Positions 5,710-50,640 of a stretch of 64,000 bases of DNA are shown piece by piece (position 1 is the first letter of the stretch; each line of letters opens with the position of its first letter). The stretch is from Meghimatium bilineatum. Taxonomy: Eukaryota; Mollusca; Gastropoda; Stylommatophora; Philomycidae. A model generated the notes under the pieces. It was not told where the DNA came from. It ran no database searches and saw only the letters and a list, made by a program, of their open reading frames with translations. A program made the translations under genes and the position numbers. The stretch is from positions 66,630,579 through 66,694,578 of the forward strand of contig CM067306.1 in assembly GCA_034231615.1 (NCBI GenBank), given 5' to 3'.

Positions 5710-6280
5710 GCTTATTATCTTACTTAAAAGGGAAACACCCTAGCAGCTAGGAGAACAACAAACCTGAGACAGACTTTCAATCTATACATAAAATCAATAT
5801 GGCTGCCTGAAAAGTATGGCCGAGAAAGCTGTAGGCAAATAAAGATCACATTATTGATAAATTCACTTGATAAATTTTTGTTTTTGTTTTTCTGAGACAA
5901 TCAATTGAGATTTTGATGTTTATTGATCGTTTACCCACAAAAGTTGATATTATTTTAACTGAACACTGTACTATCTATCTATTCTGTTTATTGGTGGACT
6001 GGACCACTGAGAACTGAACAGTACTAGTGGACCATCACAATCACTTTCTATGTTCTAATAATAGGGTTAATAGATGTCACTTTTAGACAGCTGACTAATT
6101 AAAGAGAGTATCTGGGACAGCTGACTATAGAGAACAGCTGCTCCTTCAAGTGTTCACTCCCGTGGTCTGACTCTTCAAGTGTTCTCACTCGCGTGGTCTA
6201 ATCCTGTCAGATCTGACCCTTCAAATGGTCACTAGGTTGTGATGTGAGCCTTTCATTGGACAATCTGCACATTTTCACTC
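5710..6280. other. No gene seen
   Basis: Unique-looking AT-rich sequence. Near-duplicate words TTCAAGTGTTCACTCC and TTCAAGTGTTCTCACTCG at about 6145-6190. Confidence 0.45.
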
Positions 6281-8100
6281 AAGCAGTGAATGAAATTCAT
6301 GGATGAGTTTAGACAGTTCACTAGTTGTTAAATCATCATCATTGCACTCCAGACACACCCATATGTGCTCTGATCTCCCATGAGTGTATCCACTATTACA
6401 CTCCAGACACACCCATATGTGCTCTGATCTCCCATGAGTGTATCCACTATTACACTCCAGACACACCCATATGTGCTCTGATCTCCCATGAGTGTATCCA
6501 CCATTGCACTCCAGACACACCCATATGTGCTCTGATCTCCCATGAGTGTATCCACTATTACACTCCAGACACACCCATATGTGCTCTGATCTCCCATGAG
6601 TGTATCCACTATTACACTCCAGACACACCCATATGTGCTCTGATCTCCCATGAGTGTATCCACTATTACACTCCAGACACACCCATATGTGCTCTGATCT
6701 CCCATGAGTGTATCCACCATTGCACTCCAGACACACCCATATGTGCTCTGATCTCCCATGAGTGTATCCACTATTACACTCCAGACACACCCATATGTGC
6801 TCTGATCTCCCATGAGTGTATCCACCATTGCACTCCAGACACACCCATATGTGCTCTGATCTCCCATGAGTGTATCCACCATTGCACTCCAGACACACCC
6901 ATATGTGCTTGATCTCCCATGAGTGTATCCACCATTGCACTCCAGACACACCCATATGTGCTCTGATCTCCCATGAGTGTATCCACCATTGCACTCCAGA
7001 CACACCCATATGTGCTTGATCTCCCATGAGTGTATCCACCATTGCACTCCAGACACACCCATATGTGCTTGATCTCCCATGAGTGTATCCACCATTGCAC
7101 TCCAGACACACCCATATGTGCTTGATCTCCCATGAGTGTATCCACCATTGCACTCCAGACACACCCATATGTGCTCTGATCTCCCATGAGTGTATCCACC
7201 ATTGCACTCCAGACACACCCATATGTGCTCTGATCTCCCATGAGTGTATCCACCATTGCACTCCAGACACACCCATATGTGCTTGATCTCCCATGAGTGT
7301 ATCCACCATTGCACTCCAGACACACCCATATGTGCTCTGATCTCCCATGAGTGTATCCACCATTGCACTCCAGACACACCCATATGTGCTCTGATCTCCC
7401 ATGAGTGTATCCACTATTACACTCCAGACACACCCATATGTGCTCTGATCTCCCATGAGTGTATCCACCATTGCACTCCAGACACACCCATATGTGCTCT
7501 GATCTCCCATGAGTGTATCCACCATTGCACTCCAGACACACCCATATGTGCTTGATCTCCCATGAGTGTATCCACCATTGCACCCCAGACACACCCATAT
7601 GTGCTCTGATCTCCCATGAGTGTATCCACCATTGCACTCCAGACACACCCATATGTGCTCTGATCTCCCATGAGTGTATCCACCATTGCACTCCAGACAC
7701 ACCCATATGTGCTCTGATCTCCCATGAGTGTATCCACCATTGCACTCCAGACACACCCATATGTGCTCTGATCTCCCATGAGTGTATCCACCATTGCACT
7801 CCAGACACACCCATATGTGCTTGATCTCCCATGAGTGTATCCACCATTGCACCCCAGACACACCCATATATGCTCCAGTCTCCCATGAGTGTATCCACCA
7901 TTACACTCTGGATACATCCATATGTGCTCCGATCTCCCATGAGTGCATCTACTATTACATGATGATTAATAGTTCCAGTTGTCAAGTGGTCAACAAACAT
8001 ACGTCTAAGCCTAAAATAGCGCGTATTTCTGTCCAAATTTCAGACAACGCCACATTTCATGCCGAGTTCTTTTATTCTGGACATGAAAAATGAATAATTT
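6280..8100 (-). mobile_element. LINE ORF fragment (RNase H-type) hosting a 54-bp array
   Basis: On the minus strand, 8100-7930 reads SRIKELGMKCGVV and FRLRRMFVDHLTTGTINHH, and the far side (6340-6280) reads CLECNDDDLTTSELS. The LINE at 40.6-41.4 kb reads IRIKELGLKCGV, FRGRKRMMVNQRHTGTVSQR and CPECNDDDPTSYN at the same places. One LINE ORF copy is therefore split by about 30 tandem copies of its own internal segment. Confidence 0.9.
6337..7950 (-). repeat. 54/53-bp minisatellite, about 30 copies
   Basis: The unit contains CATATGTGCTCTGATCTCCC on the plus strand. 54-bp units keep frame (18 codons); 53-bp units lack one base and shift it, which explains long overlapping ORFs in several frames. 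Variants in CACCATTG/CACTATTA mark subgroups. The unit matches LINE bases about 41164-41217. Confidence 0.97.
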
Positions 8101-8450
8101 CCCCTTCCATTAATTTCATTTTCCAGTGTTATTACTCGTAATGATTTCGACAGTGGCTGTTACCACTTAGAAGGCCTTGAATCTTTAGTCAGCTGTGGAT
8201 CTGTGCCACAAGAACTCTCCAGTTCACCGCTGTTTCTGCCACACAAAAACAGATAGTACAGACCAGCTATAAACCACATACTATTACTGCATTCAAGATC
8301 CAGCTATAAACCACATACTATTACTGCATTCAAGATCCTATATGACCATGTACACACAAAGTTGAATCACAATTAAAAAAATATAAGTAAATTATCTATG
8401 CCATTGTTTTCTTGCTTCTTTCAATGTCTTGCTGTTTTGTGAAATTTTAT

Positions 8451-21900: not shown

Positions 21901-24900
21901 CTGAGGTCCACTAAAGCAATGATTCTCAACATAGGCCACATGGAACCTATGGGCATATAATTATATAATTGTTGAAAATTGATGAAATGGGATGGGGGGG
22001 GGGACACATGCCCTTCCAAGGGAACCACAGGGACAAGTAAACATTTGATTGATAGACAAATAGAATTCTAGTAATAAAACTTAAAATACTTTAGAAACTT
22101 GTAAAGTATGTCAATAAATGTATTAGGCATCGGGGGAGTGTCACGGAAATATATTTGTGCCAGAAGGTGGCCATAGCCAAATAAAGGTTGAGAACCATCG
22201 TTTTGAAGGATACAAGTCTTTTTATTTTGATGTTAGCTCCTTTTAACTCGTAGTATATGTTAATATGTATATGCTGGGTTCAAACCCCCCTCCCACTTCT
22301 CAATTAGCCAGAACACAATATTGAGTATCAAGCTATGAAAACGTGGGTCACCCCCCCCCTACCCAAGGCCATTTAAAATATCATAAAATGAGGAAATAAG
22401 TTCATGTTTTAAATATTTAAATAAAGGTAACCCTCTCCCTACCAAGAACATAAACTCTCGAACATACTCATTCTAAACCAGACATCGAAAACTGTGCACA
22501 TAAACAGCACCTCAACAAAATGTCCAATGTAAAGCTCCTCCAGAGTGACAACAAGGTTCAAGGTCACATCTCCACCTCGAAGTACCTCCTTTTCCTGGTT
22601 CTGCATGCCACTAAAGGAAAACCCAAAGTCTCCAAAAAAACTGAGAAAGAGAAAGCATTTATGTTGAATCACAAACATCAATAATCATGAAATATCAATC
22701 AACATTGAATCACAAGATTATTAACTTCCAGTTAATGGTGTAGGATGGCAGTTGTTATCCTGTTTTCCCAAATGGAAGTAAAGTTTGGTGTTTCAGTACT
22801 TTCTAAATAGAATATGTGATTTATTTTCTGAATGTGATAGATTAGAACACGGTCTAACTATTTGGAGACAAAAACAACATTGTGACAGGTCTAGCAAACC
22901 CCGCCTCCTCAAAAATTGCTCCAATTAACATCCCCCATCACATAAATTTCAGTATATACCTCTCCTGAATGTACAATAATTTCAGTATATACCTCTCCTA
23001 AATGTACAATAATTTCAGCATATACCTCTCCTGAATGTACAATAAATTTCAGCATATACCTCTCCTGAATGTCCAATAATTTCAGCATATACCTCTCCTG
23101 AATGTCCAATAATTTCAGCATTTACCTCTCCTGAATGTCCAATAATTTCAGCATATACCTCTCCTGAATGTCCTATAATTTCAGCATATACCTCTCCTGA
23201 ATGTCCAATAATTTCAGCATATACCTCTCCTGAATGTCCAATGAAAATACTATCATTCAGCAAGATAACCTGTACCAGCAGCAAATAGATTTTGATGTTT
23301 CTTTCAAAGAAAAAGATGTTTGGTCGCACAAGAAGACTCCATCATATTTCATTTTTTCTGAACTTGATAAGAAATTGAAGAGAATGATGAGTCAGTGACT
23401 TTAATAAATCTATCAATGTGCCATACCAAGTGGCATAGGTAATCATGTTTCTCCACAACTCTCTGTCTCTTGTGTTATTAATAAGTTCAGATGGTGACAT
23501 TTTCTCATGCCACTGTGACAACCCATACAGCAACTTTTCTCTTTGTTTTCTGCTGTCTTTTCTTCCTTTGATCTTTCCACTGGTCACTAAATGTTCAAAC
23601 TTTGCTCTTCTCAACACATTCCCTAAAACGCTGTCAGCTTCAAACTTTTTGATTTTGCTATAATTTGTATTTTGACTTCAGAATCTCTGAGCTCTTCTAA
23701 AGTAGTTGTACGAGGCGTGTTCAAATGAAAACGGGACTTGTGGATTTATTTAAAAAGTATCATACGCAATTTAATATTTTCAACGGAATTGAACAAAGCA
23801 ACCACTTGTGAATAAGAATGCACCTGGGTTCATCAGAAAAAATCTCCGTATGCATTTAGGCAAGCATCCCACTGTTTAGGTAGACGTCGAATGCCGTCCG
23901 AGAAAAAGTTGCGTGGCTGTTCTCTGAACCATGTGGTCACCGCTGTCTTCACGTCTGCGTCGCTGTTGAATCGCTGTCCCTTTAGTGCTTTCTTCAACGG
24001 TCCGAACAAATGGAAATCACACGGGGATAAATCGGGACTATAGGCTGGGTGATGAAGAACTTCCCAATTCTTCTTTGCCAATGTTTCCTGCACAATTTTT
24101 GCGACGTGCGGACGAGCGTTGTCGTGGAGAAGAATCACACCTTGAGAAAGTCTGCCTGGTCGCTTAGCCTTGATGGCCTTATGCAGCTTGTCTAAAGTGT
24201 CTTTATAATGGGCGGCATTGATGTTGACACCAGGTTCCTTAAAATCAGTCAACAAAAGCCCTTCATGGTCAAAAAATGCAGTCACCATAACCTTCCCAGC
24301 AGAAACCTGTGTCTTGAATTTTTTGGGTTTTGGTGAACCTGGATGTTTCCATTGCATGCTGTCAATTTTGCTGCTCGGTTCATTGTGGTGGCACCACGAT
24401 TCATCACCTGCCACAATGCTCAACAGAAATGCATCACCCTCTGCCCTGTAATGCATCAGGTGGTTCAAACTCCACCCCATCCGTTCTTCCTTATGGTGGT
24501 CTGTCAACATCCGTGGGACCCACTGTGAACACACCTTCCGATAGTTCAATTTCTTCCGAACAACCATGTGGGCTGTCCCAATTGACATATGGAATTCTTC
24601 TGCAAGCGAACGAATGCTCCGACGACGGTCAGTCAGTACTGCTTTATCAAGCACGGCTATGGCTTCTTCTGTTGCAACAATATGCGCCTGACCTGGCCGT
24701 GCAAGATCTGCCGTTAACTCACGTCCGTCTTTAAACATACGCACCCACTCCATCACTCTGGTCCTTGACAAACATTTGTCACCATATGCTGCCTTCATTC
24801 TCCGATGAATGTCTACTGCTTGACATCCTTCAAATGAAAGAAACTGGATCACAGCACGCTGATTCACTTTGGACGGGTTCGGAATCACACCCACCATATT

Positions 24901-27900
24901 GTTAACAGTCTTCTGCAGCACATATGCATGCTGGGAAGATGAACACATGACCGTATGTAAATTATTGGATACTCATTACTAGTGCAAAATGTCATCAATA
25001 TCAGTGCGCTCTATCACGCGTGGTGTAACAAGTCCCGTTTTCATTTGAACACGCCTCGTATATGGGTGTCCATGAAACTTTCATCATTCTTCTAAAGTAG
25101 TTGTATATGGGTGTCCATGGAACTTTCATCATTCTTCTAAAAAAACCAAAAAAAAAACAACCTACCTCAGTAGACTCCTGCTCACTATGTACATTTTGTT
25201 TATAGTGTCCATGCTTCAAATCCATTAAGAAGAATTGTTTCAATATCACATCTTCTTCTTCTTCTTCCTGTCCTCATTTATCTTTCGGCATTAAGGAGAG
25301 AGTGAGTATACAGTCTTTTGCCCTTCTATTTGCCTCTTCTGCTGTTATATTTGCCCTTCTATTTGCCTCTTCTGCTGTTATATTTGCACTTCTATTTGCC
25401 TCTTCTGCTGTTATATTTCCAAGTGTCCCTAATAAACTATCCACCTCCAATAGGACTGTTTTCATATCGTTTGCTCATTATTCTCTCTGAAGTATAAGCT
25501 TAATTGTATCTCACATTGTAACACTCACATTGTAACACTCAAATTCTAACACTCACATTCTAACACTCACATTCTAACACTCAAATTCTAACACTCACAT
25601 TGTAACACTCAAATTCTAACACTCAAATTCTAACACTCACATTGTAACACTCAAATTCTAACACTCACATTGTAACACTCAAATTCTAACACTCACATTC
25701 TAACACTCAAATTCACATATGCATTTACAATACTGCATTGCATAAAATATTTCTCATTTTTAGAAATTAGTTGACACCTGCGACAATAAAGAGATGCAAG
25801 ACAGCCAAAAAAAAACATGAGCATCCGGGACTGTTGTTAGTTTTAAGCAAGGTGACCAACAGGTAGGTACAGGAGCTAGTTCTCTGTGATCAACAGGTAG
25901 GTACAAGAACCAGTTCTCTGTGACCAACAGGTAGGTACGGGAGCTAGTTCTCTGTGATCAACAAGTAGGTACAAGAACCAGTTCTCTGTGACCAACAGGT
26001 AGGTACGGGAGCTAGTTCTCTGTGATCAACAGGTAGGTACAAGAACCAGTTCTCTGTGACCAACAGGTAGGTACGGGAGCTAGTTCTCTGTGATCAACAG
26101 GTAGGTACGGGAGCTAGTTCTCTGTGATCAACAATTAGGTACGGGAGCTAGTTCTCTGTGATCAACAGGTAGGTACAGGAACTAGTTCTCTGTGATCAAC
26201 AGGTAGGTACAAGAACCAGTTCTCTGTGACCAACAGGTAGGTACGGGAGCTAGTTCTCTGTGACCAACAGGTAGGTACGGGAGCTAGTTCTCTGTGATCA
26301 ACAGGTAGGTAAGGGAGCTAGTTCTCTGTGATCAACAGGTAGGTACAAGAACCAGTTCTCTGTGACCAACAGGTAGGTACGGGAGCTAGTTCTCTGTGAT
26401 CAACAGGTAGGTACGGAAGCTAGTTCTCTGTGATCAACAGGTAGGTACAGGAACTAGTTCTCTGTGACCAACAGGTAGGTATGGGAACTAGTTCTCTGTG
26501 ACCAACAGGTAGGTACAAGAACTAGTTCTCTGTGATCAACAGGCAGGTATGGGAACTAGTTATCTGTGATCAACAGGTAGGTACGGGAACTAGTTCTATG
26601 GTACAGCTGGCCTACTGGTGATAGACCCCCATTACAGACATCCATTGTTCAGGTAAGTGGTAAAAACACTGAATGTATTAGTTACAAACACTGAATGTAT
26701 TAGTTACAAACACTGAATGTATTAGTTACAAACACTGAATGTATTAGTTACAAACACTGAATGTATTAGTTACAAACACTGAATGTATTAGTTACAAACA
26801 CTGAATGTATTAGTTACAAACACTGAATGTATTAGTTACAAACACTGAATGTATTAGTTACAAACACTGAATGTATTAGTTACAAACACTGAATGTATTA
26901 GTTACAAACACTGAATGTATTAGTTACAAACACTGAATGTATTAGTTACAAACACTGAATGTATTAGTTACAAACACTGAATGTATTAGTTACAAACACT
27001 GAATGTATTAGTTACAAACACTGAATGTATTAGTTACAAACACTGAATGTATTAGTTACAAACACTGAATGTATTAGTTACAAACACTGAATGTATTAGT
27101 TACAAACACTGAATGTATTAGTTACAAACACTGAATGTATTAGTTACAAACGCTAAAGTCGGATGTGCCAGGTCAATGGCACAAAAATGGTGACAGCAAT
27201 AAAAAAAAAAAAAATTTTTCTCTGGACTACATCCTGCTGAAAATCTTGACCATTGTCCTGCTATAAGAGAGATCCAGTGCGAGCTTGAGAATGAATGAAA
27301 AGAAGTCAGAGAGTTTGTACAAATAATGATGAATCATATCAAAGTAGTGGCTGGGTTGTACAGGTAATAATTCTCACCTGGAAAAGTGATCATCTTTAGA
27401 ATTCCCTTTCTTCAAGCCGTCTTCTCCGTGTTTGTCATAAACTTTACGCTTTTCTGGGTCAGACAAGACCTAAAATAAAAGCAATCACAGAAAAATCATG
27501 AATGTTAGCTCGTGATAGTTGTACACAATAGTCCCTACTACAAGTATTTCTAGAAATAAAATGCTTAAAAGGCTAGAAAATGGAGATAGAGACCATGAGT
27601 GGTACACTTCTGTGAAGTGCGAACACATATTATTCAAAACAAATTGTAATACGCCGCTGAAGATGGATGTGTTGGACCATTGGAGCAAATAAAACATGAC
27701 ACAACACATTCCATTCTCTGGACTACATCCTGCTGGAGATCTAGTAGTTCTGCTACAAGAGAGATCCAGCAGGAGTTTGAGAATGAACGCAGAAGAATAA
27801 GAAAATTGTAATGTGACAATATAGCATAACCATAAACAAAGGAGAACAAACAAGAATAAAAAAATAAGTAGAAATTGTCAGTTCCGAATTGTCAATTGTA

Positions 27901-40007: not shown

Positions 40008-40165
40008 GTATTGCAGCGTGACGGGCAGAGGGGTTCTCTGGAGATGTATTTTTTGTATGTGTGTGCTTCGTATATTTTTTTGTTTGTTTACTATTTTGTT
40101 TCTATAATCCAACGTGTGCATGATCTGCCCCTGACTCTGAATCCACCGTGTCTGTAATAGACATT
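40008..40165 (+). repeat. Dispersed repeat, GCAGCGT-head family, copy 1
   Basis: ATTGCAGCGTGACGGGCAGA, GGTTCTCTGGAG, then GTGCATGATCTGCCCCTGAC and ATCCACCGTG. Homologous along its length to 51866-52025. Confidence 0.8.
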
Positions 40166-40480: not shown

Positions 40481-40523
40481 TTATCGACTGCTTTGGTTTA
40501 ACACAATAGAGTTCAACCATATT

Positions 40524-40590
40524 GATATAGTTATATATACAGATGATATAGTTATATATACAGATGATATAGTTATATATAAAGATGGGT
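40524..40590 (+). repeat. 22-bp tandem triplication at the RNase H start
   Basis: Three copies of a unit containing GATGATATAGTTATATATA, immediately before the KDGS active-site codons of the LINE. It looks like local amplification of the IYTD/IVIY coding segment. Confidence 0.85.
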
Positions 40591-41396
40591 CGGTTGAGAG
40601 ACACATCAGGAGTTCCTGGGCTTTCACGGTTCAAAGGTGGGGGTAGACTATCAGAGAGGAAAGTGGTGCATTCGTTCAGACGACAAGCAGCTTGACAATG
40701 GATATTCTGGCGGTGACCAAAGCTTTGCAATGGATCTGCTCACAGACTGTCTGCGAGCATGCCTGTATACTCAGTGACTCCATGAACATGATTGTGAAAG
40801 TTCAGACGGGGTACGTTCGAGAACAGTGGCTGGATGCGGTGAATAATTCCTGTGTGCGTACAGTGACTTTTATTTTTGTGCCGGGACACGTGGGAGTCCG
40901 GGGTAAAGAAAGAGCAGATAGGTTGGCCGCCCACGCTGCTACTACGGCTGTTGGTGGAGCGATGGATCGGGCAGACATTCTGAATGCCCTAAGTGAAAAC
41001 GCACGAACAAATGACTGTACAAGTGACGATGACTCTTGTTCCATGATTAGAATAAAGGAACTTGGTTTGAAATGTGGTGTCGCTAGAAACGAGAGTTTTC
41101 GTGGGCGAAAAAGAATGATGGTCAATCAACGACATACTGGGACTGTCAGTCAACGTGTAATGGCGGATACACTCAAGGAAAGATCTCAGCACCTATGGAC
41201 TTGTCCGGAGTGCAATGACGATGATCCAACGAGTTACAACATATGCTTCCCTCACAACGAAACAACCCACCACATGTCGAGAGTAGAACTCACAGCACAT
41301 AACTCCGTAGCTCAAGTGATAATTTCCAGATATCTTGGGAAAACTCCACTTTATAAAAACAGCCGACCGAGTAGAATTAAAACTCAAGACCTCTAG
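40550..41396 (+). mobile_element. LINE C-terminal fragment with RNase H domain and CPEC motif
   Basis: Before the long ORF comes VIYKDGSVERHIRSSWAF (first RNase H Asp); then TMDILAVTKALQWI, ACILSDSMNMIVKVQTG (Asp), [20 protein letters not shown] (last Asp) and SQHLWTCPECND. This is RNase H as carried by I/R1-like LINEs. The usual catalytic Glu of TMEI is Asp here, and one stop lies between the first motif and the 234-codon ORF. It is a 5'-truncated, probably dead copy, but the best-preserved LINE coding segment in the window. Confidence 0.88.
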
Positions 41397-49384: not shown

Positions 49385-49682
49385 AAAATGATTCTTGGAC
49401 CACATGCATCTTGTAGATTGATTCTTGGACCACATGCGTCTTGTAGGTTGATTCTTGGACCACATGCGTCGTGTAGGTTGATTCTTTGACCACATGCGTC
49501 TTGCAGGATGATTCTTGGACCACATGCGTCTTGTCGGTTGATTCTTGGACCACATGCGTCTTGTAGGTTGATTCTTGGACCACAGGCGTCTTGTAGGTTG
49601 ATTCTTGGACTACATGCGTCTTGTAGTTGATTCTTGGACCACATGCGTCTTGTAGGTTTATTCTTGGACCACATGCGTCTTA
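49385..49682. repeat. 30-bp array, first block (about 10 copies)
   Basis: Unit GATTCTTGGACCACATGCGT plus CTTGTAGGTT. Confidence 0.97.
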
Positions 49683-50004: not shown

Positions 50005-50640
50005 AACCACATGCGTCTTATAAATTGATTCTTGGACCACATGCGTCTTGTATCTGGATTCTTGGACCACATGCGTCGTGTAGCTTGATTCTTGGACCAC
50101 ATGCGTCGTGTACGTTTATTCTTGGACCACATGCGTCATGTAGCTTGATTCTTGGACCACATGCGTTTTGTAGGTTAATTCTTGGACCACATGCGTCGTG
50201 TAGGTTGATTTGTGACCACATGCGTCTTGTAGGTTGATTCTTGGACTACATGAGTCTTGTAGGTTGATTCTTGGATAACATGAGTCTGTCAGGATGATTC
50301 TTGGACCAAATGCGTCATGCAGGATGATTCTTGGACCACATGCGTCGTGCAAATTTATTATTGGACCACATGCGTCTTGTAGCTTGATTCTTGAACCACA
50401 TGCGTCTTTAGCTTGATTCTTTGACCACATGCGTCTCGTAGCTTGATTCTTGGACCACATGCGTCTTGTAAGTTAATCTTGGACCACATGCGTCTTGTAA
50501 GTTGATTCTTGGACCACATGCGCCTTGTAGCTTGATTCTTGGACCACATTCGTCTTGTAGCTTGAATCTTGGACCACATTCGTCTTGTAGCTTGATTCTT
50601 GGACCACATGCGTCTTGTAAGTTGATTCTTGGAGTCTCAC
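50005..50640. repeat. 30-bp array, second block (about 21 copies)
   Basis: Same unit as 49385-49682 with more variants (CTTGTAGCTTG, CGTGTAGCTTG). Confidence 0.97.

Follow-up and report, generated by a model that had tools for sequence, protein, structure and literature searches.

The window array and its parent element

The window, by which we mean the whole 64,000-nucleotide stretch of Meghimatium bilineatum DNA analysed here (contig CM067306.1, positions 66,630,579 to 66,694,578), carries on its minus strand, at 6340-7956, a minisatellite array in which a unit of 54 (or 53) bp, derived from the 3' coding end of a LINE, is repeated head to tail 30 times. TRF describes the array with a period of 54, 30.1 copies and a 97% match. 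An earlier note on this DNA had placed a 54-bp minisatellite at 6280-8100; the 54-bp array is confirmed, its extent is corrected to the coordinates above and some of its units are 53 bp long. Split on the minus strand, the units fall into types A (54 bp, n=13), B (53 bp, n=7) and C (54 bp, n=7) and three singletons, which follow one another from left to right on that strand in the order DEBAAAFBAACABAABBBABAACACCCACC. Unit D, at the left edge, differs from the other units by a mean of 9.9 changes, compared with 1.5 among inner units, and type C units are concentrated near the right end of the array. This pattern is the picture expected of internal turnover with an old unit kept at one edge. 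The unit measures 54 bp, as opposed to 55 in the LINE, because a 1-bp loss is present in all six unit types and hence in all 30 units.

LINE sequence borders the array on both sides. On the left, immediately upstream of the unit, it occupies 7957-8148 (minus strand), with homology fading at about 8141-8152, which is taken as the 5' truncation of the copy. This flank contains an in-frame TGA (read by eye), and the LINE copy that bears the array is therefore dead. A search of the 1.61-Gb genome with the left flank returned 375 candidates, 40 of which were scored; 39 lay elsewhere at 69-90% identity and one was the locus itself. On the right, 6312-6339 (minus strand) comprises the final ~30 bp of the LINE, with the codons NDDD... 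and a degenerate ACTAACTAA tail, and beyond that tail (past 6312 on the minus strand) no LINE homology was seen. The right flank matches the LINE across about 30 bp (GTGCAATGATGATGATTTAACAACTAGTGAAC), aligned copies that keep the LINE 3' end diverge past ...GATGATGATCCAACGACTAACTAACTAA, and a 146-base query taken from this flank found itself as the only match in the genome. The short homology and the solitary match are both explained by the position of the LINE 3' end, ~30 bp beyond the array. TE-derived minisatellites are recognized as tandem arrays of 10-100-bp units, in which the unit is homologous to an internal TE segment carried once by other copies, with TE sequence on both sides. Here the units are 54/53 bp long and number 30, related old- and young-subfamily LINE copies carry the unit once, and LINE sequence extends for up to ~190 bp on the left and for ~30 bp, to the end of the element, on the right.

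The window also contains, on the plus strand at 40524-41232 (ends placed by eye), a 5'-truncated copy of the LINE from a younger subfamily, which retains the RNase H domain and C-terminal tail and has one unit. The earlier note had matched the array unit to this RNase H LINE at 41164-41217, and the match holds at 81-82% over 63-71 bp. Its assignment of both array flanks to the LINE is likewise borne out, the left flank matching the 41-kb copy at 72% over 61 bp (E 1e-7; other copies match better) and the right flank matching up to the LINE end. The 41-kb copy is 96-98% identical to 39 other places scored. As a direct parent of the array it was rejected, since it belongs to a younger subfamily outside which the array copy falls, and the array's own LINE copy is older than that subfamily. 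Both domains looked for in a parent non-LTR retrotransposon, reverse transcriptase and RNase H, are found in the family (RVT_1, E 6.8e-15 in L003; RNase_H, E 2.5e-10 in L008 and 2.4e-6 in the window copy), and in young copies the segment lies at the end of the reading frame that encodes both, ending ...CPECNDDDPTTN-stop. A 23-base pattern over the unit start gave 11,491 matches when up to 3 mismatches were allowed, a count that takes in array units, against 2 for the reversed-pattern control, which points to a family of roughly ten thousand copies with the segment. Neither of the outcomes that the earlier note had set against an in-place origin, absence of the segment from other LINE copies and failure of the flank homology, came out.

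At the 5'-truncated start of the young copy, window 40523-40587 holds 3.1 copies of a 21-bp unit (TGATATAGTTATATATACAGA) of which L003 and L004 have one; by eye the unit codes for DIVIYTDGS of the RNase H domain. This repeat may have been born very recently, or may have formed at insertion.

Tandem arrays with a period of 7 or more make up 27% of the window, and 11% of 36 other stretches picked for LINE copies (112,950 bases). The genome thus looks minisatellite-rich, and the window array alone is ordinary for a genome with such a load. Elsewhere in the window, the unit of a 45-bp array at 51506-51882 matches L010, L022 and window 40010-40040 at 87-88% over 31-33 bp, and this array is possibly another born from a dispersed element. 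Two arrays of one 30-bp unit lie ~320 bp apart at 49389-49681 and 50006-50633, and a 379-amino-acid open frame at 23833-24972 (Transposase_1, E 1.2e-16; DDE_3) is what we take to be a mariner-like transposase. Within the 36 LINE stretches, L018, L020, L028 and L033 have arrays of 22, 24, 22 and 40 bp, respectively, in or overlapping LINE copies, with units different from that of the window array.

Sister arrays from the same segment

At least 26 arrays at 27 loci, with 2 to about 67 units or more, derive from the same LINE segment in the 1.6-Gb genome, one pair of loci being segmental duplicates. They were found with junction patterns, two-unit queries and paired words, and the sequence was then read at each place. 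The junction pattern gave 640 matches (control 0), which mix arrays with junction-like single copies (L040, L054, L081 and L083) and were therefore not used as an array count. The paired-word searches required exact 10- and 13-base words and gave 413 and 163 matches, the first list covering C1-C8 in full; being limited to exact words and to the matches listed, they make 26 arrays a lower bound. Reversed-pattern controls gave 21 and 888 matches for the 413-match search and 11 and 0 for the 163-match search; as these are not low, only LINE-like sequences were accepted. The earlier note had proposed looking for loci with one, two or many units, and all are present, as single-unit relatives and as arrays of 2 to about 67 units. 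Its view that a minisatellite birth of this kind is rarely caught is not supported, given the number of arrays here and the 23% of human minisatellites and satellites that Ahmed & Liang (2012; PMC3389668) report as TE-derived.

In the single-copy LINE the segment is bounded, as the earlier note had observed, by near-identical words, GTGTAATG at 41155-41162 and GTGCAATG at 41210-41217, 55 bp downstream (both plus strand), and this word pair is the break site of the window array and ten others. The GTGTAATG/GTGCAATG junction, with its 55-bp spacing, therefore defines a class of 11 of the 26 arrays, several of them found by searching for that junction; because some searches targeted it, the counts of the junction classes are biased. 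Besides the window array on C9 (30 units), the class comprises C20:9.99M (about 67 units), C5:19.19M (L041; 18 units), C16:34.42M (13 units), C3:1.38M (L077; about 10 units and smaller nested arrays), C15:5.55M (6 units), C13:6.29M (4 units), C22:14.40M (3 units) and the dimers C21:56.11M, C17:2.91M and C9:43.41M (2 units each). The 15 arrays with other or less certain junctions have units of 15 to 58 bp: C24:46.19M (56 bp), C20:49.75M (45 bp), C1:101.02M (50 bp), C2:50.81M and C2:106.84M (48 bp each), C2:77.72M (29 bp), C4:38.80M (56-58 bp, near the window class), C7:1.23M (32 bp), C7:20.46M (57 bp), C8:12.19M (58 bp), C15:11.11M (L093) with its copy at 11.24M (L094; 15 bp), C13:15.13M (27-32 bp), C16:2.01M (46 bp), C18:16.26M (51-52 bp) and C19:63.67M (49 bp). 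More than 4 kb lies between the ends read of the C8:12.19M array, which on those ends is possibly the longest of the series. Depending on how C4, close to the window class, is counted, 14 or 15 of the 26 arrays have breakpoints other than those of the window array. By our reading 18 of the 26 have LINE on both sides; in the others, one side has been lost, is unclear or lies outside the sequence read.

Some copies bear more than one array. In L041 a second array of ~15 bp (GTAACATGTGGCGCT) lies directly left of the 55-bp array and looks, by eye, like the LINE stretch next to it, AAATGTGGCGTTG; this one copy may have given rise to two adjoining arrays. In L077, nested 21- and 35-bp arrays sit beside the 55-bp array in one LINE copy, each from part of the same segment.

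It could be argued that an array spread as a unit, by segmental duplication or satellite transfer, and that its likeness to the LINE is secondary. There is one true segmental pair, on C15, in which L093 and L094 lie 127 kb apart and hold the same LINE-born array of 15-bp units in 21 and 19 copies, a difference that shows that arrays alter their length after birth. With the LINE and the arrays masked, however, the 28 array loci and the window have no common flank in register except in that pair; residual flank matches (L041 with the C15 pair, L078-L092, L078-L082 and L071-L078) fall at non-corresponding places and look like dispersed repeats. In young copies, moreover, the segment codes for the C-terminal end of the LINE protein, and the LINE is therefore the source. 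Spread of a ready-made array is accordingly a very improbable origin for the series.

Independence, timing and breakpoints of the births

If the arrays did not spread, their first duplications may still have been inherited: a source LINE carrying a tandem dimer could have retrotransposed, its daughters expanding the duplication afterwards. Two trees, into which the flanks of 15 of the 26 arrays were put, bear on this. The second, built from LINE flanks (52 rows, 114 columns, three non-LINE stretches masked), scatters the array-bearing copies. Both the eight same-junction arrays with usable flanks (p-AU 0.0098) and all 15 arrays in the tree (p-AU 0.0105) were rejected as a single clade, and none of 200 bootstrap trees unites the eight. 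The first tree (230 columns, some rows with non-LINE stretches) requires 10 changes of the array label, a single change being seen in 0% of 200 bootstrap trees; counting against separate births, the label in this tree is slightly more clustered than in shuffles (12 of 500 as low). There have been at least two births at the window junction, and the differing breakpoints add more.

Several observations do favour an inherited dimer. One junction class is common to 11 arrays, and once the young-subfamily dimer L079 is left out, the remaining seven old-subfamily same-junction arrays are not rejected as a clade (p-AU 0.22). The window and C17 arrays have C146A in common, together with two more variants seen by eye; their births therefore may share history and may not be independent. 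Against inheritance stand the differing breakpoints of 14 or 15 arrays among the 26, the position of L079 within the young subfamily (support 100/100 in the first tree), and the fact that a family on the order of 11,000 copies yields no large dimer class in the exact paired-word list complete for C1-C8. Descent of the series from one retrotransposed dimer is thus, in our judgement, quite unlikely, and separate duplications in individual LINE copies are preferred.

When such duplications occurred can be approached through the changes that units share. Single copies differ from the unit core at a mean of 4.4 of 32 bases (n=14). The shared-change test covered 16 of the 26 arrays and the 14 single copies that passed the placement filter, a change being called rare when present in no more than 2 of the 14. 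In 13 of the 16 arrays a rare change, or more than one, is common to at least 80% of units, with 25 such changes in total. The window's shared changes, A129T, loss of T131 and C146A, are present in 29 of the 29 units examined; the test took 29 of the 30 units, the left-edge unit being a misfit to the seed that by eye has all three. In the C5 and C20b arrays no shared change was found by this test, and C7b has one only, which is common among single copies. The young dimer L079 adds thin evidence: its units have four shared differences from a young copy and one unshared; two of the four are old-subfamily letters and may be ancestral. Since units share changes that are rare in single copies, duplication probably came after insertion. 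On these sequence comparisons decay probably came before duplication in most of the array-bearing copies tested, unless homogenisation, which could make later changes look shared, spread changes that arose afterwards.

The same data bear on the possibility that the first duplication arose at insertion, the reverse transcriptase having slipped or switched template close to the 3' end of the LINE. Target-primed reverse transcription begins at the LINE 3' end, and the segment adjoins that end. The C5 and C20b arrays lack a shared early change, the young LINE copy in the window begins, at its 5' truncation, with three copies of a 21-bp unit, and Ahmed & Liang (2012; PMC3389668) suggest retrotransposition-linked initiation in humans. 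The 13 of 16 arrays with shared rare changes are, however, what is expected if decay came first, and the two C19 units examined differ from each other at 0 of 32 core sites, where single copies average 4.4 of 32 from the core. On balance the shared rare changes therefore argue against duplication by the reverse transcriptase at insertion, which we regard as unlikely, and for duplication within LINE copies already in place.

The earlier note had proposed slippage or unequal exchange from the word pair; the words do sit at the break, but their score lies within chance. The extended pair, GTGTAATGGTG/GTGCAATGATG, is alike at 9 of 11 bases, in keeping with the short direct repeats expected around a pre-duplication unit by Haber and Louis, but this agreement is weak alone, as shuffling the 127 bases concerned gives a score as high in 113 of 200 cases (young subfamily, 118 of 200). 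Among the pairs listed it scores highest of the internal near-repeats spanning the unit, in both subfamilies; other near-repeat pairs elsewhere in the stretch score equally or better. Because shuffles often reach its score, the word pair is a plausible seed rather than proof of mechanism. In 20 single copies it gave the best diagonal in 4, with a median diagonal rank of 5 of 86; this ranking is noisy in decayed copies; L026, L037, L010, L015 and L036 gave no junction window, and it was made without L019, L013, L017, L018, L020, L028 and L033.

Across 13 distinct break pairs, the mean exact homology at the break is 1.62 bp, compared with 0.82 for random breaks (p = 0.012; p = 0.045 with mismatches), some of the mappings being faulty, and several junctions have 0-1 bp of homology by gapless mapping. 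That mapping misplaced the break of C13b, probably also that of C24, and shifted C15b; the statistics were kept and break classes were assigned by eye. With break homology so mixed across junctions, homology may help, yet it does not account for every break. Right breaks recur, by eye and among the paired-word matches listed, just past CACCTAT(G) in 8 of 19 LINE-derived loci and at the GTGCAATG word in 7 of the 19 (C4 counted in), and at the CACCTAT(G) breaks left ends vary and homology is often little. The LINE would then in effect provide thousands of copies of one test sequence, in which duplication keeps starting in one ~100-bp stretch, its right ends recurring at two sites. Tentatively, and with more doubt than confidence, we suggest that a local break or pause site, and not flanking homology alone, sets the start.

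Two other candidates for a common cause were rejected. An old 34-bp duplication internal to the LINE (R91-124/R149-181) was seen at a lax gap cost and was absent at stricter costs; the best internal repeat of the LINE segment at offsets 40-70 is no better than in shuffles. A hairpin at the break site was sought in a DNA fold of a 73-base stretch, which was nothing unusual (z = -0.23).

Probable recurrent birth and its relation to known minisatellites

The reading that we favour, at a probability of roughly 85%, is that tandem duplication has recurred inside decayed LINE copies and has been followed by array growth, the window array having been born in place in a dead, 5'-truncated, RNase-H-bearing LINE. 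The central claim of the earlier note, that the array arose in place within a LINE, thus stands, both flanks being LINE and single-copy relatives having one unit. From the anatomy of the array, the single-unit relatives, the many array loci, the differing breakpoints and the rare substitutions shared by units, all of which are observed directly, we infer a DNA-level mechanism, its timing and a process of growth. A LINE copy would have inserted, 5'-truncated, and partly decayed; the 55-bp stretch between GTGTAATGGTG and GTGCAATGATG would then have been tandemly duplicated at the DNA level, by replication slippage or unequal exchange. Once two units are present, slippage or unequal exchange can be expected to add more, and the long homology of the duplicated units would let the array grow and homogenise inside, the left-edge unit keeping old differences. 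The same segment would duplicate likewise in other copies of the family, in some at the word pair and in some elsewhere.

The question of how a minisatellite starts is poorly resolved. PMC6947457 reviews births in which short direct repeats delimit the unit, and only 6% of human TE-derived arrays fitted known initiation models, by the account in PMC3389668. One LINE family with many births, arrays of 2 to about 67 units and single-copy controls makes birth, breakpoint choice, timing and growth measurable from one genome. If the recurring right ends prove to have the meaning suggested above, a local break or pausing site decides where an array starts.

The comparisons that follow rest on those parts of the cited papers, or of papers citing them, that were available. 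The human TE-derived minisatellites (PMC3389668) resemble the present series in that an internal TE segment gives rise to tandem arrays and certain TE regions are hotspots, and also in the occurrence of arrays at multiple loci with differing unit numbers, fewer loci having more units. The human hotspots described there are in AluS and LTR12, whereas here one LINE segment has given at least 26 arrays, most with readable flanks and breakpoints. The model of Haber & Louis (1998; via PMC6947457 and PMC3389668), in which direct repeats of 5-10 bp bound the unit and growth proceeds by slippage or unequal exchange, is similar in outline, but here the repeats are imperfect, agreeing at 9 of 11 bases, and at several sister arrays the break shows less homology, or none that can be detected. 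Alu-derived minisatellites (Jurka & Gentles 2006) likewise arose from a given TE type by way of short direct repeats, and two mouse minisatellites from transposon-like LTRs (Kelly 1994) share the TE-type origin, both as described in the citing papers PMC6947457 and PMC3389668. In contrast with the Alu and mouse LTR cases, the source here is an RNase-H-bearing LINE with a coding 3' end, and the series of unit numbers is longer than described in those accounts. The maize repeats CRM1TR and CRM4TR (PMC3648361) are alike in having arisen separately at least twice, from comparable regions of related retrotransposons. They differ in deriving from centromeric LTR elements with LTR-UTR units, and the short direct repeats that a one-step junction requires were not found in them. 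The TE-derived minisatellite is therefore a kind already known; what is useful here is a replicate series of births in one genome, with single-copy controls.
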